NCBI GenBank assembly: GCA_910573755.1
Contig: CAJTBO010000031.1
Coordinates: 1-57,123 of the forward strand
Source: Lachnospiraceae bacterium
Lineage (GTDB): Bacteria; Bacillota; Clostridia; Lachnospirales; Lachnospiraceae
Reading direction: 5' to 3'
Length of the DNA stretch: 57,123 nt
Positions within the stretch are counted from its first letter, which is position 1. Each line of letters begins with the position of its first letter. The notes beneath the pieces are model-generated. The model did no database searches. It had not been told where the DNA came from and saw only the letters and a program-made list of their open reading frames with translations. Of the stretch, positions 1 through 57,123 are shown piece by piece. The translations under genes were made by a program, and so were the position numbers.

Positions 1-781
1 CATACTCTTCCGCCGTGGGCACTTTATGGTGCCATGCCGCCTTGTCTTCCATCACGGCGGAACCGCAGCCCTTTACGGTATTGGCAATCACCACGGCGGG
101 CTTCCCCTTCACCGCCTTTGCCTCTTCATAAGCCGCCGTGAGCTGGCAGATATCATTGCCGTCCTTTACATCTATCACATGCCAGCCAAAACTCCGGAAC
201 TTTTCGTGCAGGTCGCCGTGCGCCATCACGTCCTCGGTATTGCCGGAGATCTGCAGCCGGTTCCTGTCCACGGTGGCGCAGAGGTTATCCAGTTTATAGT
301 GGGCTGCCGCCATGGCGCCTTCCCACACGGAACCCTCCGCCAGTTCCCCGTCGCCCATCACCGTATAGACACGGTAGTCCCTCTTATCCATCTTTCCGGC
401 CAGCGCCATCCCGACGCTCACCGGGAGCCCGTGCCCCAGGGAGCCGGAATTCATCTCGATGCCCGGCAGCTTGTTATTCGGATGGCCGATATACCGGGAA
501 CCGAACCTGCTGAACTTTTCGATCACTTCCCCGATCGGGAAAAAACCCTTTGCCGCCAGCACCGCATAAAGCGCTTCCACGCAGTGCCCCTTGCTCATCA
601 CAAACAGGTCCCTGCCGGGATCATCCTGGTTTTCAGGACTGATATTCATCACTTTAAAATACAGGGTGACCAGAATGTCTATGACACTCATGTCCCCTCC
701 GATATGCCCGCCTTTACCCTCCATGATCATATCCACCACATTTTTCCGCAGGTCATAGGATAATGCTTTTAAATTTTCCAT
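1..781 (-). CDS. Transketolase, N-terminal subunit (partial, runs off the left edge)
   Basis: The minus-strand frame from ATG at 781 stays open to base 1, about 260 residues. It reads as the thiamine-diphosphate-binding half of transketolase. Visible are a GKGGHIGG-like start region, a GHPNNKLPGIEMNSGSLGHGL-type loop and the TPP/Mg motif GDGELAEGSVWEGAM with a downstream N. Split transketolases have this N-terminal subunit followed by a separate C-terminal subunit, which would lie beyond the window. The family transfers two-carbon ketol units between sugar phosphates. The start follows a GAGGAAAAG ribosome binding site. It is the last visible gene of the sugar ABC-transporter cluster, 259 bases after the permease. 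It may serve that sugar's catabolism rather than the central pentose phosphate pathway; that is inference. Confidence 0.9.
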   Translation of the reverse strand, partial: MENLKALSYDLRKNVVDMIMEGKGGHIGGDMSVIDILVTLYFKVMNISPENQDDPGRDLFVMSKGHCVEALYAVLAAKGFFPIGEVIEKFSRFGSRYIGHPNNKLPGIEMNSGSLGHGLPVSVGMALAGKMDKRDYRVYTVMGDGELAEGSVWEGAMAAAHYKLDNLCATVDRNRLQISGNTEDVMAHGDLHEKFRSFGWHVIDVKDGNDICQLTAAYEEAKAVKGKPAVVIANTVKGCGSAVMEDKAAWHHKVPTAEEY

Positions 782-1040
782 CTCTTTTCCTCTCATATAT
801 TAATCGCCTTTTATGGATCCTTTTCATGTGTAAGACCTGATACAAGAACACAATCAAACATTTCACCTTCTTTTTTCCATAATGGAAAAGTTCCGCTGCA
901 TAGCGTCCTATCTGAAAAATATTTCAAAGTACAGTATTTCTTCCTGCTTTTCCACAATATCCATTCAGCTTTCTTCACTTTATTCAATATTTTCTGCTTT
1001 TCTCTCTATCACTTCCGCGTCTCGGACCAGTCCGCCCAAT
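782..1040. other. Intergenic gap between permease and transketolase
   Basis: This stretch is AT-rich and holds no convincing ORF or RNA. A short perfect palindrome (TTTTCCATTATGGAAAA, about 874-890) could form a small hairpin followed by purines. I see no clear terminator, so the transketolase may be read through from the transporter or from an unrecognised local promoter. Confidence 0.4.
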
Positions 1041-1991
1041 TTATGATCTGTTCGCAAATCTGTCGATTACCGTTGCCACCAGTATGATCAGCCCCACAAA
1101 CAATGTCTGGTAGAAAGACGGCACGTTCAAAAGCGTCAGGCCATTAGATAATGTTCCAAGAATGCATGCACCGATCATTGTTCCGAGCAAGCTTCCTTTT
1201 CCACCTGCAAGGCTTGCTCCTCCTATTGCAGCAGCCGCAATAGCATTCATTTCATAGCCATCGCCCGCCTGTGGATCCGCCGCCGCCAGACGTCCCATAT
1301 AAATAATCGCAGCCATAGCACAACAAAATCCTGATATGGCATAGGTTCTTGTTTTTACAGATATTGTATTAACGCAGGAAAATCTTGCCGCTTCCTCATT
1401 TCCCCCTACCGCAAACAAATATTGTCCATATCTTGTATATTTTAAGACAAACATAAAAATGACGAGCAACACGACAAGCATAATGACCGGTACCGGAACA
1501 CTGCCGTTTAACGCATTCATTCCGTTCAGAAAAGCAGAATCCAACCCTCTTACGGGCAAACCGTCAGATATGATCAATGTGATTCCCCTGTATACACTCA
1601 TTGTTCCCATCGTTACAAGAAAAGGCTGAAGCTTCAATATGGATATTAGAAGTCCGTCCATCGCCCCACAGATGAGCCCGATTAACACCGCTACAAAAAT
1701 AGCTGCATAAAAAGTAACGCCTGCTGCCATCATTTTTGCCGCCACCATACTGGAAAGCGCCACGATCGATCCCACTGAAAGCTGAATCCCGCCAGTTATA
1801 ATGACTAACGTCATCCCGATAGCAATCGTTCCGTTAATACAGGATTGCAATAAAATATTGGTTATATTGCCTCTCGTCAGAAACTTATCGGACATAACCG
1901 TAAAAAACAGGCAAAGCAGCACCAGGCTTGCAATGATTCCGGCTTTCCTCTTCCAGGAAGCCCCTTTAAATATTGTGTTCATTTTTTTCAT
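1041..1991 (-). CDS. Sugar ABC transporter permease (RbsC family)
   Basis: This is a 316-residue polytopic membrane protein with about eight to ten hydrophobic segments, of the ribose/galactose/autoinducer permease family. The family hallmark regions are present: a GGIQLSVGSIVAL-like segment near the N-terminus, the cytoplasmic loop with GNEEAARFSCVNT that contacts the ATPase, and AIAAAAIGGASLAGGKGS near the C-terminus. The start is placed at the ATG at 1991 because GAGGTG lies at proper distance; an ATG seven codons upstream lacks this. The gene overlaps the end of the ATPase gene by 26 bases, which suggests translational coupling. It would form the membrane channel for the sugar delivered by the binding protein at 3622-4743. 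Confidence 0.93.
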   Translation of the reverse strand: MKKMNTIFKGASWKRKAGIIASLVLLCLFFTVMSDKFLTRGNITNILLQSCINGTIAIGMTLVIITGGIQLSVGSIVALSSMVAAKMMAAGVTFYAAIFVAVLIGLICGAMDGLLISILKLQPFLVTMGTMSVYRGITLIISDGLPVRGLDSAFLNGMNALNGSVPVPVIMLVVLLVIFMFVLKYTRYGQYLFAVGGNEEAARFSCVNTISVKTRTYAISGFCCAMAAIIYMGRLAAADPQAGDGYEMNAIAAAAIGGASLAGGKGSLLGTMIGACILGTLSNGLTLLNVPSFYQTLFVGLIILVATVIDRFANRS

Positions 1992-3486
1992 TGTTTTCAC
2001 CTCCCATGGCATACATCATAATTCTCTCTTCCGTCAATTCACTGCTGTTTAATTCCCCTGTGATCCTGCCCTCATACATGACAATAACTCTGTCGCTCAG
2101 GGAGATAACTTCCGGAAGTTCCGATGATATCATGATGACTGCTCTTCCTTCATCCGCAAATTGTCTGATCAGTTTATATATTTCAAATTTCACATTGATA
2201 TCAATGCCCCTTGTCGGTTCATCCAATATCAGGATATCCGGATTGGCATTCATCGTTCGGGCAATGACAACTTTTTGCTGATTTCCTCCGGAAAGACGTC
2301 CTGTTTCATACTCATCATCCCTTGGAGATACCTGGAGACGGTCCATATATTCTCTTGCGTCTTTTTTGATATATGCATGATCCAATATGCCATATTTTAC
2401 ATATTTTTTCAGATTTGACAGTACAATATTGGCTCTGTTGGAAAGTATGCCTACCATACCCTGATATTTTCTATCCTCAGGTATGAGCATAATACCTTCT
2501 CTCTGAGCATCCAAAGGCTTTTTGACAGATACTTCATGCCCATTTACAAAAATCTGTCCATATGAATGTCTGTCAATTCCGAAAACAGCCCGCATGACTT
2601 CCGTTCTTCCTGCTCCCACAAGACCGGCAAATCCAAGCACTTCGCCCTTGTGAAGCTGGAACGATATATCCTGAAATCCCTTTCCGGACAGATTTTTCAC
2701 CTCCAGTGCCACTTTCTCCCGCACATTGCATACCTCATTAAACCTCTGATCCGCAATGTTTCTCCCAACCATCATTTTAATCAGCTCTGCTTTATCCGTT
2801 TTTGCCGTCTCTACTGTTCCTATATACCGGCCATCCCTGAAGATCGTCGCCCTGTCCGTAATGCGGAAGATTTCTTCCATACGATGAGAAATATAGATAA
2901 TGGACTTACCTTCTTTTCGTAAGTTGTCCATTGTCTGCATCAGTTTTTCAATCTCATTATTTGTCAGACTGGACGTAGGTTCATCCAATGCCAGCACAAT
3001 AAAATCTTGAAGCAACGCTTTGGATATTTCTATCATCTGCTGTTGCGCAATGCTTAAGTCAGATACAATGTCTTTGCTCGAAAAATCTGCATCCAGCTTC
3101 CTTAATATTTCATCCGCTCTTTTAAATATCTCCTCATAATTTATCAGGCCGGTTCCCGTTCTTGGCTCTCTTCCCAGAAAAATATTCTGTCCTACCGTCA
3201 TCCCCTGAACAAGCTGCAGTTCCTGATGCACCCTGACAATCCCCATATCTCTTGCCATTGTCAAATTTTTAATTTCTGTCGGCCTGCCCTCAATTATGAT
3301 CTCACCGCTATCTGCTCTGAAAGTACCTGTTATTATATTTAAAAGTGTGGATTTGCCAGCCCCATTCTCTCCCAAAAGCGCATGTATCTCACCTTTTCTC
3401 AGTTCAAACTGTACATCATTGAGCACCTTATTCGTTCCAAAAGACTTTGAGATTCCTTTCATCCGGAGAACTGTTTCCTTTTCCAT
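1966..3486 (-). CDS. Sugar ABC transporter ATP-binding protein with two ABC domains (RbsA/MglA family)
   Basis: This 506-residue protein has two fused nucleotide-binding domains. The first has Walker A GENGAGKST (about residue 40), signature LSIAQQQM and Walker B FIVLALDEPTSSLT. The second has the degenerate Walker A region GLVGAGRTE, signature LSGGNQQK and Walker B ILILDEPTRGID. A degenerate second Walker A is normal in the RbsA/MglA family. Length matches the family (about 500). The start at 3486 follows GAGGTGATAAG. It lies between the binding-protein and permease genes and energises import of the same sugar. Confidence 0.95.
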   Translation of the reverse strand: MEKETVLRMKGISKSFGTNKVLNDVQFELRKGEIHALLGENGAGKSTLLNIITGTFRADSGEIIIEGRPTEIKNLTMARDMGIVRVHQELQLVQGMTVGQNIFLGREPRTGTGLINYEEIFKRADEILRKLDADFSSKDIVSDLSIAQQQMIEISKALLQDFIVLALDEPTSSLTNNEIEKLMQTMDNLRKEGKSIIYISHRMEEIFRITDRATIFRDGRYIGTVETAKTDKAELIKMMVGRNIADQRFNEVCNVREKVALEVKNLSGKGFQDISFQLHKGEVLGFAGLVGAGRTEVMRAVFGIDRHSYGQIFVNGHEVSVKKPLDAQREGIMLIPEDRKYQGMVGILSNRANIVLSNLKKYVKYGILDHAYIKKDAREYMDRLQVSPRDDEYETGRLSGGNQQKVVIARTMNANPDILILDEPTRGIDINVKFEIYKLIRQFADEGRAVIMISSELPEVISLSDRVIVMYEGRITGELNSSELTEERIMMYAMGGENNEKNEHNI

Positions 3487-3621
3487 ACCCGCTTATCACC
3501 TCAAATTCGCATCCTATCTGTTTTTTTAAAAACAGGACTGACGTCAAACAAAATGATCAGCAATACGTCAGCCCTGTCTCTGTCATTAATTTACCCTGTC
3601 TACTTTTTGCAGCAAACTTTT

Positions 3622-4743
3622 TTATTTACCATATTCGGCCATATTATCTGCATCCAGTACTTCAATCGGTGTGCTTACTACTTTCGGAAGTTCCTGTCCG
3701 CCCATAATACGAAGCGCAACCTCCACTGCCGCATAGCCGTTATCAAACAAGAACTGATCTACAGTCGCCGTCATCTCACCCTTTTTAATGGATGCGTAAG
3801 CATCGCCTGTTCCATCCACACCAACTACTACCACTTCACCTACTCTATTTACACCTCTGAGTGCTTCCACTGCTCCAAGAGCCATGTTGTCATTACAACA
3901 GTAAAACGCATCAAGATCCGGTGTCTGTGTCAGGATATTGGATGCAACATCCATACCTTTTTCCACTTCATAATCCGCCGTCTGACTTGCAACGATCTCA
4001 ATATCAGGATATTTTTCCATACCTTCCAGGAATCCATTTACACGCTGGATAGATGTAAATGTTCCGGATACACCTTCCAAAATGGCGACTTTGCCTTTTC
4101 CACCAATCTTTTCAGCTATATAATCTGCCGATTTTCTGCCGATTTCAATCTGGATGCCACCTACAAATGTATTGCACTGTGCAATATATTCACAGTTCAT
4201 ATTTACAACTGGTGTCCCGTTTCCGACAGCCGTCTGTACTGCACCATTCAGATTGTCATTTGTAAGGGGAGATAACACAAGGCTGTCATACTCATTGGCA
4301 AGCATTGTTTCTGCTATAGAGAGCTGCCCTGCTGTATCAGTCTCTGTACGTGTTGCCTGGATATCAACGGAGATACCAAAATCTTCTGCCGCTTTTTCCA
4401 TACCGTCTGCCATTGTCAGCCACGCTTCATTTGCATTATTTTTCAAGATACCGCCAATCGTAACTTCACCTGTTACTTCCGGCACCGGTCCGAATTTCTC
4501 TTCCAGTTCCGCATATGTGATCGTATCTGTCTCTGTATCAGGATTAAATTCTTCCACTTCTGCCTCTTCCACTTCTGCTGCAGGCTCCTGTTCCTCTACC
4601 GTCTCCTCCTGCGGTGCTTCTCCGTCGGCCGCTTCTTCTGTCGGAGTTGGCTCATTTGCCGCTTCCTGATTGGTACTTCCACATGCGGTTATACCCATAA
4701 CCAGTGTCAAACTCATAACTACTGCTAAAATTTTCTTTTTCAT
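3622..4743 (-). CDS. Sugar-binding lipoprotein of an ABC transporter (periplasmic-binding-protein family, RbsB-like)
   Basis: This 373-residue protein starts with a lipoprotein signal (MKKKILAVVMSLTLVMG) and lipobox ITAC, so Cys21 is the likely lipidated residue. An acidic, Glu/Pro-rich linker of about 50 residues follows, then a sugar-binding Peripla_BP_4 type domain with GGILKNNANEAWLTM, SPLTNDNLNGAVQ, FYCCNDNMALGAVEAL and VVGVDGTGDA. The latter two regions are typical of ribose- and galactose-binding relatives. AGGAGG precedes the ATG. It leads the transporter genes, with 135 bases before the ATPase. The substrate cannot be read from sequence. The upstream gap holds a further possible operator at 4868-4877. 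Confidence 0.94.
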   Translation of the reverse strand: MKKKILAVVMSLTLVMGITACGSTNQEAANEPTPTEEAADGEAPQEETVEEQEPAAEVEEAEVEEFNPDTETDTITYAELEEKFGPVPEVTGEVTIGGILKNNANEAWLTMADGMEKAAEDFGISVDIQATRTETDTAGQLSIAETMLANEYDSLVLSPLTNDNLNGAVQTAVGNGTPVVNMNCEYIAQCNTFVGGIQIEIGRKSADYIAEKIGGKGKVAILEGVSGTFTSIQRVNGFLEGMEKYPDIEIVASQTADYEVEKGMDVASNILTQTPDLDAFYCCNDNMALGAVEALRGVNRVGEVVVVGVDGTGDAYASIKKGEMTATVDQFLFDNGYAAVEVALRIMGGQELPKVVSTPIEVLDADNMAEYGK

Positions 4744-4867
4744 TTTTTCCTCCTATCGTTTTGGTGTTTGTTTTTTCATTTTTCGTTGCTTCTTTCCTGT
4801 TTTAACGTTCTTTTCTGTTTTTTAATCTATCACCTCCCTGTATATTAAAAATCAATAGGTAATTGCG

Positions 4868-4877
4868 AAACCGGTTT
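4868..4877. promoter_or_regulatory. Possible fourth LacI-type operator upstream of the binding-protein gene
   Basis: AAACCGGTTT is a perfect 10-base palindrome with a central CpG, 125 bases before the binding-protein start. It shares the core of the three stronger sites at 6198, 6275 and 7381 but not their TATA flanks, so binding by the same regulator is uncertain. Confidence 0.35.
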
Positions 4878-4952
4878 GGAATATGAACACAAATAGTGCT
4901 GAAACGTGGAATTTTAGAATATCTGGGATTGAAGGAACGAAAAAGCATCTCA

Positions 4953-4973
4953 AAACAATCTGTTTTATTGTTT
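4953..4973 (-). terminator. Weak AT-rich hairpin after the cupin gene
   Basis: A 7-bp perfect inverted repeat, AAACAAT/ATTGTTT with a 7-base loop, lies 25 bases beyond the stop of the cupin gene. The stem is all A/T except one pair per arm. It may only partly reduce read-through into the transporter genes. Confidence 0.3.
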
Positions 4974-4997
4974 ATTCCTTTTCTCCTGATTTTCCCG

Positions 4998-6185
4998 TCA
5001 ATCTACATACACCGCATTATCCGGTCCAAAATGCTGTAGAATCACCATAGGTTCCGTAGTGCTGCTATTTATGATCTTTACCCCTTCCGCCGCCCGTTCT
5101 TTACTGACAAAATATTCATCTGCCGTCTGATCTCCTACACGCATCAGGTTTACAGCTTCCGCATCATATACGCCGAATTTTCCAAATCCTTGCACAATCA
5201 CACACCCATATGCCGCTTTATCTTTCAGCACTACCTCTGTTCCCGGTCTGATCGTAACCTCTTTTGACGTAATATAATCATTACCATAGCATACCCATTT
5301 CTCCGTCATCCCTTTCTGCACTTTGGGAAGTTCTACAGGCAACCTGAAATAATGCTTTTTAAACTCAAGATCAAAGTTTGTTTCCCAATCAATGGCGTCC
5401 ATTATATAATCCGTCTTGTTCTCCACATCTTTCGGACAGATATCTGTCATATAATGCTCATCAAACACTTCTCCACATACCACATTTTCCAGAACACAGT
5501 TCAGATCCGTTCCCCATTGTGGCTCATATGTCAGAAGAGAACCCGGTGCATGCACAACACCTGCCGGAATATACCATCCTGTACCAATTTCCAGATCATA
5601 AGCCTTGGAAAGCCTTGTTATATGGGTATCATAGTCTTCGAAATGTTCTATACACTCTCTCACATCCTCTTTGGTAACCTCCGGATTAAATCCGATATAA
5701 GTCGAAGGACGCCTGCCAGCATAATTGTTCAGCTGAGGCGGAAAATAATAGCATTCGGGTTTTGCTTCACATCCCACGTTTTTTGCCACCTCTGTTGCTG
5801 GATGGAAATGGAAATATAAGGGTGTTTCATAGTCAAAAAATTTGGCAAATACCGGAAACGTTCCGTACTTTTCCTGTAGCTCCTTTCCGATCAACTCTCC
5901 CTTCAATTCTGCTACCGCATCTTTGAACAGAAATTTCCCTCCATCCGCGCCAAGTACATAACTCAGTCCCTGATCAGGACGATTCAGATTTTTTACTCTT
6001 GTCCCGCTGACAGTACAAAACCACCGTTCCATGACTGTACCTGCGTCTGCCCCGTACGCGAAATAATCATCCGGATGAATTTTCAGCCGACGCCCCGGCG
6101 CGCCGAATTTTACCGGAACAAAATTCGGAACCATCCGAAAAATACCTCCCCCCTTCTTAAATGTTTCCCTGATTTTTTTCTGCAT
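4998..6185 (-). CDS. Cupin-fold sugar isomerase-like protein (class I phosphomannose isomerase relative)
   Basis: This 395-residue protein resembles class I mannose-6-phosphate isomerases. It has FPVFAKFFDYETPLYFHFHP with a metal-binding HxH pattern and a Glu a few residues later (HFHPATE). It also has GTGWYIPAGVVHAPG, equivalent to the conserved PAG-x-x-HA of ManA, plus a second cupin half near the C-terminus. It is longer and more divergent than ManA itself, so the substrate may be another sugar. The ATG follows AAGGAGG. It is the first structural gene after the LacI regulator, with two palindromic operators in the 130-base gap before it. A catabolic isomerase for the imported sugar is the natural inference; plain mannose-6-phosphate isomerase is the alternative. 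Confidence 0.75.
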   Translation of the reverse strand: MQKKIRETFKKGGGIFRMVPNFVPVKFGAPGRRLKIHPDDYFAYGADAGTVMERWFCTVSGTRVKNLNRPDQGLSYVLGADGGKFLFKDAVAELKGELIGKELQEKYGTFPVFAKFFDYETPLYFHFHPATEVAKNVGCEAKPECYYFPPQLNNYAGRRPSTYIGFNPEVTKEDVRECIEHFEDYDTHITRLSKAYDLEIGTGWYIPAGVVHAPGSLLTYEPQWGTDLNCVLENVVCGEVFDEHYMTDICPKDVENKTDYIMDAIDWETNFDLEFKKHYFRLPVELPKVQKGMTEKWVCYGNDYITSKEVTIRPGTEVVLKDKAAYGCVIVQGFGKFGVYDAEAVNLMRVGDQTADEYFVSKERAAEGVKIINSSTTEPMVILQHFGPDNAVYVD

Positions 6186-6197
6186 CTTTTCCTCCTT

Positions 6198-6217
6198 ATA
6201 TAAAATCGGTTTTATAT
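6198..6217. promoter_or_regulatory. LacI-family operator O1 upstream of the cupin gene
   Basis: This 20-base palindrome with one mismatch is centred on CpG (ATAAAATCGGTTTTAT core) and lies 13 bases before the cupin start codon, overlapping its leader. LacI proteins typically bind such sites with a central CG. A second copy lies 78 bases away, compatible with repression by looping. Confidence 0.8.
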
Positions 6218-6274
6218 TAAATTTTTAAAAAATAATGCTATTTTATTATCATTATTTTTATTTACAATATTCAT

Positions 6275-6296
6275 TTTATAAAATCGGTTTTATAAA
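6275..6296. promoter_or_regulatory. LacI-family operator O2 upstream of the cupin gene
   Basis: This 22-base palindrome has one mismatch and the same core as O1 (ATAAAATCGGTTTTAT). It lies between the end of the LacI gene and the cupin gene, so the cupin-transporter unit has its own regulated promoter here. The surrounding sequence is very AT-rich. Confidence 0.8.
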
Positions 6297-6315
6297 TATC
6301 TTATAAATAGAGGGA

Positions 6316-7353
6316 TTATGTATCCCTCATTTTTCCAATACTGCTGTCCCGTATGATAATTTCCGGCATAAAACACATATCCTTATACGGAATATTTTCA
6401 TTGTGAAGCCGTTCCAGCAATATTTCTGCCGCTGCTTCCCCGATCTTCCCTTCCTTCATATCAAATGATGTAATCCCGATAATCTTTGAAATATTCAAAT
6501 TATCCAAACCCGTCAGCGCGATTTCGCCATTTAAATCCCGGACAGCTTTCCAACATCCAATCGCCTGCTGATCATTGGAAGCACATATTGCAGTCGGACG
6601 ATCGTTCAACTGATACAGACTTCTTCCCGAATTATAACCGCCCTCCTCAGAATAATCGTTCCACATGACATATTCTTCGCGAAAATCAATATTGCTGTCT
6701 TTCAGAGCCACCTTATAAGCTTCAAACCTCTGACGATAGACTTCTACTCCCTGCCGTCCTGCCAAATACCCGATCTTTCTATGTCCCATTTGAACCAAAT
6801 GTTTCACTGCTGTATATATTCCCTTATACACATCAATAGAGATCGTATCAAAATGCAATCCTTTATTTGCCCACAAATGATTACACATTCCACACAGAAC
6901 TACCGGCCCTGGTGCTCTTTGAATTTCTTCGAGCAAAGCCTGCTCATAGGAAAAATTAATAAGAAACAGACCATCTACCACCTTTTCCCGGAGCATGCGC
7001 AGCGCCTTCATCTCCTCGTTATATTCACCCCCCGTATAATAAAGAAGCATGGAATAATCCTTCTTCTTCACTGTCCGCAAAACCATTTTTATCATATCAA
7101 AGTATATTTCATTTGAAGTATCCGGAATTGCCAACATGATCAGTCCGGTCTTTGTTGTCTTCAGGATACGCCCGGCTCTGTTCGGCACATAGTTCAGTTC
7201 TTTTGCCGCCCGTAACACCTTTTCCCTTGTCTCTTCTTTTACATAACCGACACAGTTAAGTGCGTGGGAGGCAGTTCCGGGAGCAACACCCGCCAATTTT
7301 GCAACATCGTATATCGATACAACAGCAGATTTCTTTTTCTCTCGTCCTGCCAT
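6316..7353 (-). CDS. LacI-family transcriptional regulator of the sugar locus
   Basis: This 345-residue protein has the classic arrangement. An N-terminal helix-turn-helix (VSIYDVAKLAGVAPGTASHAL, about residues 12-32) is followed by the hinge region YVPNRAGRILKTTKTGLI and a periplasmic-binding-like effector domain with AICASNDQQAIGCWKA and ALTGLDNLNISKI. The ATG follows GGAGAG. One operator lies in its own promoter region and two before the next gene, so it most likely represses itself and the cupin-ABC-transketolase genes until the sugar is present. The HTH has GTASHAL where most members have TVSRAL. Confidence 0.95.
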   Translation of the reverse strand: MAGREKKKSAVVSIYDVAKLAGVAPGTASHALNCVGYVKEETREKVLRAAKELNYVPNRAGRILKTTKTGLIMLAIPDTSNEIYFDMIKMVLRTVKKKDYSMLLYYTGGEYNEEMKALRMLREKVVDGLFLINFSYEQALLEEIQRAPGPVVLCGMCNHLWANKGLHFDTISIDVYKGIYTAVKHLVQMGHRKIGYLAGRQGVEVYRQRFEAYKVALKDSNIDFREEYVMWNDYSEEGGYNSGRSLYQLNDRPTAICASNDQQAIGCWKAVRDLNGEIALTGLDNLNISKIIGITSFDMKEGKIGEAAAEILLERLHNENIPYKDMCFMPEIIIRDSSIGKMRDT

Positions 7354-7380
7354 ATTCTCTCCATTTACTTCCTGACATTT

Positions 7381-7398
7381 TATAAAACCGATTTTATA
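7381..7398. promoter_or_regulatory. LacI-family operator O3 in the regulator's own promoter region
   Basis: This 18-base palindrome with one mismatch (ATAAAACCGATTTTAT core) lies 28 bases before the lacI-type start codon. It is the reverse-complement form of O1/O2, indicating autoregulation. Confidence 0.78.
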
Positions 7399-7486
7399 TT
7401 TTAATTATACTCTTTTTTTCTCAAAACACAATATGTACTTTTCCACTAACTCATCTTCGTATTTTTGTATATTTTTCACAACAGCA

Positions 7487-7510
7487 AAGAGGCTGCCCAA
7501 GCAACCTCTT
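7487..7510 (-). terminator. Hairpin terminator after the SpoIIQ-like gene
   Basis: Stem of about 10 pairs with one mismatch (AAGAGG-TTGC / GCAGCCTCTT on the minus strand) with a CCAA/TTGG loop, 48 bases past the stop at 7558. It separates this gene from the LacI regulator promoter. Confidence 0.55.
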
Positions 7511-7557
7511 CCTTTAAGCCCTGCATGTCAACAGGTTCTATTTTGTTCTTTCTATTT

Positions 7558-8463
7558 CTATGACACCGGATTAACCGGCACTCCGTCCTTTGTCAGCTTC
7601 AGATACAGGTTGCTTCCCTCCACCGCATAATACCGTGTGGGTTCCGCTATCTTGGCAAATATCTCCCCCTCTGCCACATAAGTCCCCTCCGAAACCGTCA
7701 CCTCCTGCAGTTGGCCGTAAGTCAGTTCATATCCATTGCCCAGATTCATCACGACCGTCTGTCCTGTCATCGGATCGTTATAGATCCTGCTCACCATACC
7801 GGCTGCCGCCGCCTTCACGGATTCTCCTGAGGTTGCCGCAAGCACAAGGGCCGGATTGCATTTATACTGCTGCAGCGTGGGAAAATATACTGATTTATCC
7901 GCACTATAGTTGATCAGAATATTTCCGGCAAAAGGCATGACCAGAGAATCCGCCTCACTGAAGGTAAGTTCCGGCTGTATCTGTGCCGCCACTGCCTCGG
8001 AATCCGCCTCCAGAATTTCATCCTCCGCCGGAAGTTCCACCATTGCCTCTGTCACCTCATCCTCTGCCATACCGTCCTTTGTCTCTCCCTCTCCGATGAT
8101 CAGGTCGGAAGATGCCTCCTTCAGACGGATCGCTTCCGCTTTTTCATCAAAGGGATCTGCACTCCGGGAACTTTCTGTTGATTTTCCGTAATTATTTTTC
8201 ACCGTAGAGGAATCCACCTCTGTAGATGCCGGATCATAATCCAGATCGCTGTCCGTTACCGGAATATCTTCCGCGACGATCCCTGACGATTTTCCGTCTT
8301 CCAGAGAACTGAAGTCGATCGTATAGCCTCCGTCCTCCTCCTTCTCTTTTCCGTTCCGTACATAAACCCCGGTCACCGTCAGGGCTGACAGTACCAGCAC
8401 CGAGGAGGCAATCATGATTGCTCTTTCTTTTCTCTGCCCGCTTTTACCGCTACGCTTCTTCAT
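7558..8463 (-). CDS. Membrane-anchored M23-fold protein, SpoIIQ-like, probably without peptidase activity
   Basis: This 301-residue protein has a basic N-terminus, one membrane segment (AIMIASSVLVLSALTVTGVYV, about residues 15-35) and an acidic linker of about 130 residues. The C-terminal LytM/M23-like domain has VKAAAAGMVSRIYNDPMTGQTVVMNLGNGYELTYGQL and EGEIFAKIAEP. In active M23 endopeptidases the first metal motif is H-x3-D and the second includes YxHL. Here the corresponding positions read CNPALVLAA and TYGQL, so metal ligands appear lost, as in forespore protein SpoIIQ. The start at 8463 is chosen because GGAGGAAAATAG lies just before it; an ATG five codons upstream overlaps that site. 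Role in engulfment is inference; another scaffold function is possible. Confidence 0.75.
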   Translation of the reverse strand: MKKRSGKSGQRKERAIMIASSVLVLSALTVTGVYVRNGKEKEEDGGYTIDFSSLEDGKSSGIVAEDIPVTDSDLDYDPASTEVDSSTVKNNYGKSTESSRSADPFDEKAEAIRLKEASSDLIIGEGETKDGMAEDEVTEAMVELPAEDEILEADSEAVAAQIQPELTFSEADSLVMPFAGNILINYSADKSVYFPTLQQYKCNPALVLAATSGESVKAAAAGMVSRIYNDPMTGQTVVMNLGNGYELTYGQLQEVTVSEGTYVAEGEIFAKIAEPTRYYAVEGSNLYLKLTKDGVPVNPVS

Positions 8464-8594
8464 TCTATTTTCCTCCAAACCACATATATACTAAATTTGA
8501 TACTATGCCCTTAGTTTTTCCATAGCTGCCTGTTTTATGCAGTTTTGGAGGAAAAATTATTTTGCTTCTTTAATCAATCTATATGATCTGCATG

Positions 8595-16193: not shown

Positions 16194-16311
16194 GACACTC
16201 TCCCTTCCTCAATGCTTCTTTTTATTCTTTCCATCTATTTTAGTATAGTCGCTTTATCGTAAAAAGAAAATAGACAAAACACACAATTTCCCGTATAAAA
16301 GCGGTTTTCTT

Positions 16312-54982: not shown

Positions 54983-55879
54983 TTATACCGTCTCTGTCAG
55001 TTCCGAAGCTTCCACCTCCTGCGCCGTCGGAATGGAATCTGCCGCTCCCATTCTGGATACCGCTATGGCTGACGCCTTTGCGCATCTTTTCAGCGTCTTT
55101 TGTATCGGCAGGTTCTCCATCATTGACGCGATAAAATATCCGGTAAAAGTATCTCCCGCCGCCGTGGTATCCACCGGCTTCACACGAAAGATCCCCTGCC
55201 TGCAGGTTTCGTTTTTATCCCGATAGACAACGCCGTCCGATCCCAGCGTCAGCACCACCTGCGCCTCCGGGAACTTTTCCATCATCCTGTCCAGGATCTT
55301 TTCAGGTTCCGTCTCCCCTGAAATCTGTCCGCCCTCTATCTCGTTTAACAGAAAAACGGATATCTTGTTCATATCGCAGGCGAGCAGCGCCTCGTTAAAG
55401 GGCGACGGATTCAGCACGATCCGCATTCCCTTTGCATAGGCAGTATCAATAATATAGGGCATTTCGTTCACTTCATTCTGCAAAAGCACGATATCACCTT
55501 CTCCAAAACCGGAGAATACCTCATCCACATATTCCCTTGTGATCATACGGTTGCTGCCGCCGTACAAAAGAATACAGTTCTGAGCGTTCTTATCAAGCTG
55601 AATGATCGTATGTCCTGATTTGCCGGATACCATCCTGACCAGAGAGGTATCCACACCGCTCTTTGCACACAGATCCAGAAAGCCCTGTCCGTCTTCTCCC
55701 ACCATACCCGCATGCCGCACCGGCACGCCTGCTCTGGACAGCGCTATGGACTGGTTCAGCCCCTTGCCGCCGAAATGCGTCTCCATGCTGTAAGAATCCA
55801 TCGTTTCCCCCGGCGTGATCACATGGTCTACCTTATAAACGTAGTCGTAGTTTAATGATCCGAAATTTAATACCTTCAT
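54983..55879 (-). CDS. rbsK: Ribokinase-family sugar kinase
   Basis: This 298-residue PfkB-family kinase has the N-terminal GSLNYDYVYKVDHVITPGET, HFGGKGLNQSIALSRAG with the sugar-binding GGKG, and the C-terminal DTTAAGDTFTGYFIA. The catalytic Asp is in the AAGD version of the usual GAGD. The family phosphorylates ribose or similar sugars at the end hydroxyl. It starts 23 bases after the stop of a LacI regulator gene. The ATG at 55879 follows AGGAGG; an upstream in-frame ATG at 55897 overlaps that site. No ribose transporter is in this part; the substrate is not certain. Confidence 0.9.
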   Translation of the reverse strand: MKVLNFGSLNYDYVYKVDHVITPGETMDSYSMETHFGGKGLNQSIALSRAGVPVRHAGMVGEDGQGFLDLCAKSGVDTSLVRMVSGKSGHTIIQLDKNAQNCILLYGGSNRMITREYVDEVFSGFGEGDIVLLQNEVNEMPYIIDTAYAKGMRIVLNPSPFNEALLACDMNKISVFLLNEIEGGQISGETEPEKILDRMMEKFPEAQVVLTLGSDGVVYRDKNETCRQGIFRVKPVDTTAAGDTFTGYFIASMMENLPIQKTLKRCAKASAIAVSRMGAADSIPTAQEVEASELTETV

Positions 55880-55902
55880 GATTTCCTCCTGTCCCACTTC
55901 CG

Positions 55903-56904
55903 CTATTTTATTGTTTTAACGCTTCCTCTCTCCACAAACTGTGTGGAAACCTCTATTTTTACTCCGGCTTCCTGCCTCTCTTTGATCATCTGAATCAGCC
56001 GCCTTGTCGCAATACGGCCTATCTCCTGTTTCGGCACACGGAGCGTAGTCAGCGGCGGGGAGGAAATTGCCGAAAAAGGCAGATCGTCAAAACCGATCAC
56101 CGAAACCTCCTCCGGTATCCTGACGCCGTACTCTGCCATTGCCTTCATCGCTCCCAGCGCTATCATATCATTATCAGCCATAAACGCCGTGGGCAGCTTT
56201 ATCTTTTCTTCCAGATATCTTTTCATATCCGCATAAGCCGCATCCATTGTCGTTCCCACTTCAAGCGTGTATTTCTCCTCCACGGGCAGGCCTGCCTTCA
56301 GCATACCCGTCCTGTAGCCTGTTTCCCTGTCCTTAAAGGGAACGATTCTGAACCGCCCCTTTAAATATCCGATCTGTTTATGCCCTTTCCTGATCAGATA
56401 ATCTATAGCGTATCTCACGGAATCCTCATTATTCGCCTTTATCGCGTTAAACGACATATCTCCGTTCCAGTAATCGATCACAATAAAAGGTGTGGTGATC
56501 TCCCGCAGAAGCTGTATATCGCCGTCAACCATTTCCGTCCCCAGCATAATGACGGCAGAGGATTTGTCATTCAGCAGCGCCTTCGCCTGTTCCCTGCAGC
56601 TTTCGTCCCGCATATCCAGTGTGCACATGATCATATCCATTCCGCTGTCCCGGCATTCCTGTTCTATTCCAGTCAGCATCAACGGAAAAAACGGCGTATC
56701 CTCCACTACGCTGCCATCTCTTTTAAAGGTCACAAACTTTACCTTTGTAATACGGCTTTCTTCGAAATACCCCAGTTCGTATGCTACTTTCAGTACTCTT
56801 GCCGCCGTATTCGCGTTCACTCCCTTTTTATTGTTCAGCGCATTGGATACTGTAGCGGTGGATACCCCCGTTATTTCACTGATCTGCTTCATGTTCACTT
56901 TCAT
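55903..56904 (-). CDS. LacI-family transcriptional regulator adjacent to ribokinase
   Basis: This 333-residue protein starts with the helix-turn-helix MKQISEITGVSTATVSNALN (about residues 5-24) followed by ELGYFEESRITKVKFVTF. The effector domain ends with IGFDDLPFSAISSPPLTTLRVPKQEIG, typical of the family. It lies directly upstream of the ribokinase gene and probably regulates it. No clear LacI palindrome is found before it in the window. AAGG lies a few bases upstream of the ATG. Confidence 0.94.
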   Translation of the reverse strand: MKVNMKQISEITGVSTATVSNALNNKKGVNANTAARVLKVAYELGYFEESRITKVKFVTFKRDGSVVEDTPFFPLMLTGIEQECRDSGMDMIMCTLDMRDESCREQAKALLNDKSSAVIMLGTEMVDGDIQLLREITTPFIVIDYWNGDMSFNAIKANNEDSVRYAIDYLIRKGHKQIGYLKGRFRIVPFKDRETGYRTGMLKAGLPVEEKYTLEVGTTMDAAYADMKRYLEEKIKLPTAFMADNDMIALGAMKAMAEYGVRIPEEVSVIGFDDLPFSAISSPPLTTLRVPKQEIGRIATRRLIQMIKERQEAGVKIEVSTQFVERGSVKTIK

Positions 56905-57087
56905 ATCCGTTCTTACCTTCTGCCTTTTATTTTTGTGAGCAATAAGCCAGGCACTGCGCCTGCGCGAAAATCCGGTAAATGCCGCAAAAGCCGGATACTA
57001 CGGGGTATCTGATCTTGTCATCACCATCCGGACCGCATCTTTCCAGCCTGCATAAAGACCTTCGCATTGTTCTTTGTCTAATTCATT

Positions 57088-57116
57088 TTTATAACTTGTT
57101 CTGCCCATTTTGTCAA
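57088..57116 (-). promoter_or_regulatory. Near-consensus promoter upstream of the second LacI regulator
   Basis: On the minus strand TTGACA and TATAAA are 17 bases apart (6/6 and 5/6). The leader before the regulator's start would be about 175 bases, including a hairpin (ATCCGG/CCGGAT, about 56971-56997). A minus-strand frame is also open from the edge to 56998; see findings. Confidence 0.55.
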
Positions 57117-57123
57117 ATATTTT

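Follow-up and report, generated by a model that had tools for sequence, protein, structure and literature searches.

A sugar-uptake operon built around an unclassified putative sugar isomerase in a relative of Clostridium symbiosum

Two described pathways stand close to the locus examined here. The D-apiose cluster of E. coli SE15 encodes the FGGY kinase AplK, the transketolases AptA/AptB, and a CUT2 importer with a DUF2291 protein (PMC13001218). The sulfo-transketolase pathway comprises SqvD, SqwGH, SqwI, and SqwF (PMC9594981, PMC11659671). We analyzed a 57,123-nucleotide stretch of DNA from a Lachnospiraceae bacterium (the window; GenBank assembly GCA_910573755.1, contig CAJTBO010000031.1, positions 1 to 57,123 of the forward strand). 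The source is related to Clostridium symbiosum, and at the left end of the window lies a sugar-uptake operon whose central gene encodes an unclassified, putative sugar isomerase of the cupin type (the cupin operon). The cupin operon has been inserted behind an M23 peptidase gene and carries a copy of a transketolase gene that gene conversion has kept similar to the copy in a second, resident operon. The preferred reading, with a probability of about 0.45, is an importer and isomerase operon for a rare aldose that is coupled to the captured transketolase of a probable apiose operon.

Gene content, operators and importer

The operon genes run on the minus strand in the order lacI, cupin, binding protein, ATPase, permease, and tktN, the last being cut by the window edge. 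They encode a LacI-family protein, the presumed regulator of the operon (6316..7353; PF00356 5.7e-16, PF13377 1.5e-23), a 395-amino acid cupin related to phosphomannose isomerase (PMI) and proposed to act as aldose-ketose isomerase on a free sugar (4998..6185; assigned by hhalign to PMI-type sequences), a sugar-binding protein of the D-allose/ribose-binding-protein type (3622..4743; PF13407 1.7e-56), a two-domain CUT2 sugar ATPase of RbsA/AraG type (1966..3486; PF00005 1.1e-53), a CUT2 sugar permease of RbsC/AlsC type (1041..2012; PF02653 1.6e-40), and the N-terminal, thiamine diphosphate-binding subunit of a transketolase (2..796, open at the contig edge; PF00456 2.5e-51). A preliminary description, made from the letters alone, had named a LacI regulator, a PMI-like cupin, an RbsABC-type importer, and a transketolase N-terminal subunit in one direction, with the left flank missing. 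All of these genes are indeed on the minus strand. That no left flank is present follows from two facts: base 1 of the window is also the first base of its contig (C31 of the window genome, G000), and tktN is a repeat.

Against the sister species, a [Clostridium] symbiosum metagenome-assembled genome (G003, same contig as locus L006), the six genes from lacI to tktN gave ratios of nonsynonymous to synonymous divergence of 0.02-0.08, so that they are taken as real and selected. The remnant of an HbpS-like (heme-degrading domain) gene lies between permease and tktN (797..1040, minus strand). It consists of two blocks 77% identical to the sister gene, with an internal deletion and stops in all frames; the sister gene is intact (L006:15909-16451, PF03928). 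At 4804..4981, between cupin and binding protein, the sister holds an aldo-keto reductase gene (L006:11176-12078) that is absent from the window and from the related loci L007-L011; it may have been lost in the window lineage or gained in the sister. What selection keeps at the window locus is the core plus the transketolase, the HbpS-like gene being broken and the aldo-keto reductase gene absent. HbpS-like genes recur beside cupin genes (five loci in one cluster), as at L026:9604-10101.

The G+C content of the operon (797-7557) is 41.8%, that of the rest of the window 47.5%, and that of tktN 55%. The low G+C is not a conclusive sign of foreign origin, since outside the operon the window also goes down to 41.7% over a stretch of 6.76 kb.

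Three perfect LacI-type operators flank lacI. On the plus strand, O2 (ATAAAATCGGTTTTAT, 6200..6215) is just upstream of the cupin ribosome-binding site, O1 (ATAAAATCGGTTTTAT, 6278..6293) lies between lacI and the cupin gene, and O3 (ATAAAACCGATTTTAT, 7382..7397), the inverse of ATAAAATCGGTTTTAT, is upstream of lacI. At up to two mismatches the window holds six matches vs. 0.35 expected from shuffles, including three imperfect ones at 16295, 22491, and 28168. Loci L006-L010 have comparable sites, of the type ATAAAATCGGTTTTAT, ATAAAAACGTTTTTAT, or ATTAAAACGTTTTAAT and in some cases one mismatch away from it, either in front of lacI or in the gap that separates lacI from the first structural gene. 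The operator-like sites are kept across these loci with matching changes, a point in favor of the preferred reading. LacI would act as repressor of the cupin operon. Cross-regulation through the same operators was considered as well, and no site was found in the resident operon (L033).

The NCBIfam models for ribose and allose permeases gave 261.7 and 250.4 bits for the window permease, both under the cut-off, and the model for the allose-binding protein gave 186 of 335 bits for the binding protein, which is closest to D-allose and ribose receptors. The binding protein keeps N105, W108, R234, N284, D310, and Q330 of the ribose- and allose-binding proteins. Compared with the solved relatives, an Asp is changed to N183 and an Arg/Glu to C184, and both changes are invariant in the six aligned sequences. 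We take all of these residues, from N105 to Q330 and including N183 and C184, to be sugar contacts. With N183 and C184 in place of Asp and Arg/Glu, neither D-allose nor D-ribose can be assumed as the ligand. Identity to the E. coli apiose importer is 35% for the ATPase, 34% for the permease, and 25% (over 197 residues) for the binding protein, and no match to DUF2291 was found among window frames of 100 amino acids or more. Judged by its residues, the predicted binding protein is allose/ribose-like with two changed contacts, and not of the apiose type. The preliminary description had called for a comparison with known receptors, and had held that the exact residues of a known ribose or galactose receptor would point to an ordinary locus; the resemblance to ribose and allose receptors is there, and the full contact set is not, N183 and C184 being the differences.

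Insertion site and transketolase copy

The M23 peptidase gene (7558..8478, minus strand; PF01551 1.8e-15) marks the insertion site by synteny. Among nine same-genus genomes, a cupin of the window clade was found in G000 and G003 only, and it adjoins the M23 gene in both. In five others (G001, G005, G006, G007, and G008) the site is empty, i.e., the M23 gene is followed directly by a block that starts with a GH9-like protein and Ddl. In G002 and G004 the markers of the M23 and the Ddl side also share a contig, but these are too diverged for a clean empty-site call. In G006 a single contig holds a FucI-tktN-tktC-kinase operon, the LacI and PfkB genes known from the right end of the window, and the M23 gene about 50 kb further.

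The window tktN is 99.2% identical over 793 nt to a second copy on contig C16 of the same genome, which belongs to the resident operon. Identities of tktN copies are 99% within G000, 93% within G003, and 87-88% between the species; the corresponding synonymous divergence is 0.03 and 0.32 within the genomes and 0.56-0.79 between species. The copies are under purifying selection. Both species have the same insertion site and the same junction with tktN, which lies directly downstream in both. This is most simply explained by one duplication that predates the separation of the species, with gene conversion afterwards, since separate duplications would need the same junction twice. In the sister, tktN follows the HbpS-like gene on the same strand at a distance of 20 bp if the first possible start is used and of 41 bp if the ATG is.

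In a transketolase tree of 45 rows (44 distinct, L004 repeating C16), the window tktN pairs with the C16 copy (100/99). The pair is nested in a marked set of ten rows (98/87), itself part of a wider group of 30 (83/90) that comes mostly from loci with FucI-like, tktNC, and kinase genes. Three further split transketolases encoded by the window genome cluster elsewhere, among eleven rows (100/99), and E. coli AptA is attached to the group of 30 by a long branch (91/79). Another lineage of split transketolases, about 50% identical to that of C16, was seen at L007:12764-20450, where it accompanies a CUT2 importer and a TIM-barrel protein close to the cupin operon, and at L181:6795-11367, with a GlpK-like kinase; a gene near this lineage is presumably DeoR-like.

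Three genes at the right end of the window, all on the minus strand, link it to the resident operon type. A PfkB-family kinase gene (54983..55897; PF00294 9.9e-43) has its counterparts near the apiose-type operon in G003 and G006, and a second LacI regulator gene (55903..56904) has relatives that adjoin an FGGY kinase gene in G001, G003, G006, G421, and G423. The last 106 bases (57018..57123) are the partial 3' end of an FGGY kinase gene and are identical to the 3' part of the kinase gene on C16. Because tktN at base 1 and the kinase end match the same C16 operon, both window ends lie in one repeat.

The flanks beyond the window were deduced from relatives. A stem-and-T-run sequence (read by eye) lies between the M23 gene and the block in G006, and in the filled genomes it stands just before the block, after the kinase gene on C16 and after tktC on G003:C82. 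Synteny and this sequence together lead us to expect a FucI-type operon as the right neighbor of the window; on the left would follow tktC and perhaps, in this genome probably, the kinase gene, and then the GH9-like-Ddl-Mur ligase block. A C-terminal transketolase half and a kinase gene were what the preliminary description had looked for to the left of base 1, unrelated genes being its counter-sign, and the expected flank would contain both kinds in succession.

As assembled, C16 joins the FucI-like operon through the kinase gene to the GH9-like-Ddl block. Either this joint is chimeric, arising through the 2.6-kb repeat, or two direct repeats have truly recombined. If the repeats at 1-796 and 57018-57123 recombined, the intervening segment would be lost and the FucI-kinase-GH9/Ddl joint of C16 would remain. 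In the sister, contig C82 has tktC and then the block without a kinase gene (L109), and C24 has tktC, kinase, and LacI genes (L110). From synteny with G006 and G001, the sister contig C145 (cupin) would lead into C82, and C13 (FucI-like) into C24. The kinase gene precedes the left-flank genes on C16 (L033), while the corresponding position in the sister (L109) has none; that the window connects to the right part of C16 is likewise deduced.

The cupin and its family

Profile comparison shows distant homology of the cupin to class I PMI, with the predicted metal-site residues kept; no curated family takes the cupin in. A profile of nine sequences (the window cupin and eight relatives) was aligned by hhalign to four PMI-type sequences at 98.6% (E 6.4e-16, 300 columns); these four were weak matches of the cupin search, and of two scanned against the ManA cut-off one was over and one under. 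The best PDB match was 1zx5, a putative PMI (6.6e-6), with other ManA chains at 0.02 and above. H126, H128, E144, and H212 are invariant and align on conserved PMI positions, which we take to be the metal site; the Gln of the PMI site is replaced by His126. An invariant Tyr-Arg of the four PMI sequences, presumably a phosphate contact, has no counterpart at the aligned position of the cupin, in a weak part of the alignment. The cupin reached the cut-off of none of the Pfam (at 0.001) and NCBIfam models and scored far below the ManA cut-offs. The earlier label of a PMI-like cupin is nevertheless borne out by the homology. A D-lyxose isomerase was also considered: PF07385, which we take to be the cupin family of that enzyme, was not among the Pfam matches of the window cupin, nor did such a family appear at E up to 10 with eight members of set A1.

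In a tree of 44 cupin rows, six rows including the window cupin form a clade (100/100), and ten others make up its sister clade (96/93). L011 (a near copy of L010, also kept out of the neighborhood tables), L069 and L090 (cupin reading frame not recovered), and the partial match G081:C59 (no flanks retrieved) were left out. The sister clade has FGGY kinase genes within four genes in 8/10 rows and L-ribulose-5-phosphate 3-epimerase-like genes in 4/10. No FGGY kinase gene was found within four genes of the cupin in the six rows of the window clade. Another clade of eleven has DhaK, DhaL, or DAK genes beside eight of its cupins and RpiB genes beside four; one RpiB scanned from this clade scored 172.7 of 240 bits with the D-erythrulose-4-phosphate isomerase model and 178.8 with RpiB. 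Judged by this gene context, the family looks like a set of free-aldose isomerases for various rare sugars. At E 1e-20 it was found in 25/397 sampled genomes of the window's family.

Five loci (L025, L067, L070, L071, and L074) place cupin relatives beside a DhaK/DhaL or fused DAK kinase and a psicose-3-epimerase-like TIM barrel, with RpiB in four of them, and may represent a tetrose or tetrulose pathway. A small protein is encoded 3' of the cupin gene at L009:11210-11494 (ABM family) and, by clustering, at L010:9544-9846; a mutarotase-like role would be a guess.

The resident operon and related loci

The resident operon (L033, G000:C16:45000-64999) has genes for a binding protein, DUF2291, ATPase, permease, RbsD, and a 466-amino acid FucI-like isomerase before tktN, and for tktC and an FGGY kinase after it. 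Its importer is 47% (ATPase), 50% (permease), and 37% (binding protein) identical to that of the E. coli apiose cluster, and its TktN, TktC, and kinase are 43, 36, and 39% identical to AptA, AptB, and AplK. The kinase is 39% identical to AplK but 42-45% identical to six other glycerol-kinase-like kinases. With 578.6 bits it exceeds the cut-off of a GlpK subfamily model (498), and with 559.7 it narrowly misses that of the GlpK equivalog (590.35). With such a GlpK-like kinase, phosphorylation of dihydroxyacetone after the transketolase step, instead of apulose before it, is possible. Similarly, the window TktN is 44% identical to AptA and its C16 twin 44-51% identical to other split transketolases in related genomes. 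Since AptA is no closer than these, the apiose label of tktN rests on gene context.

This context comes from relatives. In Monoglobus pectinilyticus (found by a plasmid search with C16 TktC) and in a second operon of G006, the FucI-tktN-tktC-kinase run adjoins a protein with the Pfam Apiosidase domain. Among 28 loci with wide flanks (20 fetched kinase matches and eight chosen ones), a FucI-like gene was present in 26 and an apiosidase-like gene near the kinase gene in five. Two of these five are the references with the Apiosidase domain (L095 and L114); the others (L235, L248, and L249) are 40-41% relatives. Beside the C16 operon itself, no apiosidase-like gene was found. In 30 narrower kinase loci, tktC adjoins the kinase gene in 27, and the kinase of the FucI-like module was detected in 69/397 family genomes at E 1e-160. 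With moderate confidence, the resident operon probably degrades D-apiose via the FucI-like isomerase. The module of FucI-like isomerase, tktN, tktC, and FGGY kinase, at times with an apiosidase-like gene, is common (L033, L095, and L230-L249), and its FucI-like protein, which reaches no curated cut-off, is a candidate apiose isomerase. The C16 isomerase also has a weak match to sulfoquinovose isomerase (107 of 700 bits). A word search of literature titles and abstract openings, with subscription papers outside its scope, gave nothing pointing to the cupin operon or the FucI-like module.

All six related loci (L006-L011) hold lacI, binding protein, ATPase, permease, and cupin genes together. 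A FucI-like isomerase at least 85% identical occurs in the genomes of L006-L009 (4/6, or 5/7 with the window genome); none was found at this level in those of L010 and L011. Set against the module kinase in 69/397 family genomes, this gave a Fisher p of 0.003, and of 0.04 without the two genomes with the tkt copy; the two frequencies rest on different markers (FucI-like vs. kinase), and the genomes are related. This supports, without proving, a metabolic link of the cupin operon and the resident module. The genomes of L007 and L009 have a FucI-like operon with kinase (78%) and without tktNC, another tktNC lineage being present; in the L008 genome, the other tktNC lineage sits with a kinase 57% identical to that of C16.

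Weighing of explanations and known systems

On the preferred reading, a rare aldose would enter through the CUT2 ATP-binding cassette importer under the control of LacI repression, and the metal-dependent PMI-like cupin would turn the unphosphorylated aldose into the matching ketose. In the window species and one sister, the operon lies inserted between the M23 gene and the genes that used to adjoin it. At its distal end it carries the split transketolase copied from the resident operon, the latter being expected about 57 kb away; here the copy may include the FGGY kinase. The ketose, free or phosphorylated, would donate a two-carbon unit via the transketolase to glyceraldehyde-3-phosphate.

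Several points weigh against this reading. The transketolase is found at the cupin operon in two sister species only; at L007 another tktN-tktC is 2.7 kb away in a separate operon, and no transketolase was found within 4.4 and 10 kb right of the cupin gene at L008 and L009 (the L010 and L011 sequences end 0.9 and 0.4 kb after the cupin gene). In the genomes of L010 and L011 (2.1 and 2.4 Mb, completeness not stated), no kinase exceeded 44% and a close FucI-like gene was not found either; the core is therefore probably functional in the absence of both. A second tktC or kinase gene was not seen whole in the assembly of the window genome; none of its five Transket_pyr genes is at a contig end, from which we conclude that the assembly has no second tktC. 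Both tktN contigs of the sister overlap C82 equally, and the joint of its cupin operon to a tktC without kinase is thus deduced. AlphaFold2 on six cupin sequences reached a mean pLDDT of 36.

The resident kinase and transketolase being no closer to AplK/AptA than to other relatives, the preferred reading is slightly weakened, as are the two alternatives that involve apiose or no kinase and the wider scheme given below, and the idea that the transketolase is a passenger or a dosage copy gains slightly. In this last case a self-sufficient core would make a common ketose (D-xylulose, D-fructose, or a pentulose) for housekeeping kinases, and tktNC would have arrived by recombination and been kept by conversion with the resident operon. 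The explanation is a serious one, though with less than even chances. The importer and cupin without adjoining transketolase or kinase at L008 and L009, the L010/L011 genomes without the close module genes, and the similarity of tktN to the resident copy are all as it predicts. However, tktN stands on the same strand 20-41 bp after the sister's HbpS-like gene, it is under purifying selection, and the cupin locus co-occurs with the FucI-like operon. It is unlikely that the cupin isomerizes D-apiose alongside the FucI-like protein and passes D-apulose to the module kinase and transketolase. The origin of tktN in a probable apiose operon, the FucI-like gene in 5/7 cupin-clade genomes, and the plausibility of a pentose, given the FGGY kinases and epimerase-like genes beside the sister clade, would fit such a second route, but the resident importer and isomerase are already there, the operators were not found in L033, and the window binding protein (25% identity) and the DUF2291 result speak against apiose uptake.

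A route free of kinase is quite improbable. The cupin would isomerize a tetrose or similar sugar and the transketolase would directly cleave the resulting ketose, much as happens in the latter half of the sulfo-transketolase pathway, with leftover glycolaldehyde or another aldehyde reduced by the sister's aldo-keto reductase. In its favor are this gene within the sister operon, the sister tktC that leads into the GH9-like block with no kinase after it (L109, linked to the cupin operon by synteny), and the cupin clade with DhaK/DhaL-type kinases (8/11) and RpiB (4/11), as expected for tetruloses. A transketolase acting on unphosphorylated SEu is a precedent (PMC9594981). Yet the aldo-keto reductase gene is missing from the window and from L007-L011, and the kinase of the sister's resident operon could serve both. 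Improbable as well, if slightly less so, is the wider scheme of an uncurated family of PMI-related free-aldose isomerases with tetrose (DhaK/DhaL-RpiB), pentose (FGGY-UlaE), and window clades, in which the captured transketolase would act directly on the unphosphorylated ketose and conversion would span about 57 kb. An ordinary ribose or allose uptake locus is hardly credible. The importer and binding protein are nearest to ribose and allose proteins, but the scores are far below the NCBIfam cut-offs, the two changed binding-site residues are invariant among the aligned relatives, the PMI-like cupin is dedicated to the operon, and sugar kinase, RpiB, and allulose-phosphate epimerase genes are not among the operon genes; we discarded this candidate on scores, residues, and gene content.

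Should the preferred reading be right, an uncurated isomerase family would be added for sugars whose degraders are unknown, and a catabolic operon would have acquired its enzyme as a copy from a different operon within one cell, with the filled and the empty site both visible. With the FucI-like protein of a common module as a candidate for the apiose isomerase, the use of this plant sugar by bacteria becomes testable.

Among the known systems, AlsBAC/RbsABC (D-allose/D-ribose CUT2) share with the window the importer subunits and most binding-site residues of the binding protein, but differ at N183 and C184 and in the enzymes of the operon. ManA is homologous to the cupin over about 300 columns with the metal-site residues kept, whereas the cupin has His126 for the Gln, lacks the Tyr-Arg at the aligned place, and is far below the ManA cut-offs. 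The sulfo-transketolase pathway likewise combines a split transketolase with an aldose-ketose isomerase in Clostridia, and the C16 isomerase is distantly like sulfoquinovose isomerase. In contrast, the window operon genes include no FucI-, RpiB-, or iron-ADH-type protein and no sign of sulfonate; the SqvD, SqwI, and SqwF families were not found when the six proteins of the window operon and the two additional genes of the sister were scanned. Sulfoquinovose as substrate of the window operon was rejected, as the genes in view include no other sulfo-transketolase type. The preliminary description had compared the locus with apulose use. For the importer and the core this is not supported, as the window has a PMI-like cupin, an allose/ribose-type binding protein, no DUF2291 found, and no kinase in view, and the core at L008 and L009 stands without adjoining transketolase. 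For the transketolase the comparison is upheld with moderate confidence: the window operon shares with D-apiose catabolism a split transketolase (44% to AptA, a level not specific to AptA) and a CUT2 importer, its tktN is a copy from a probable apiose operon and groups with TktNs of that kind, and the resident operon from which it came has the gene set of E. coli SE15 plus a FucI-like isomerase.

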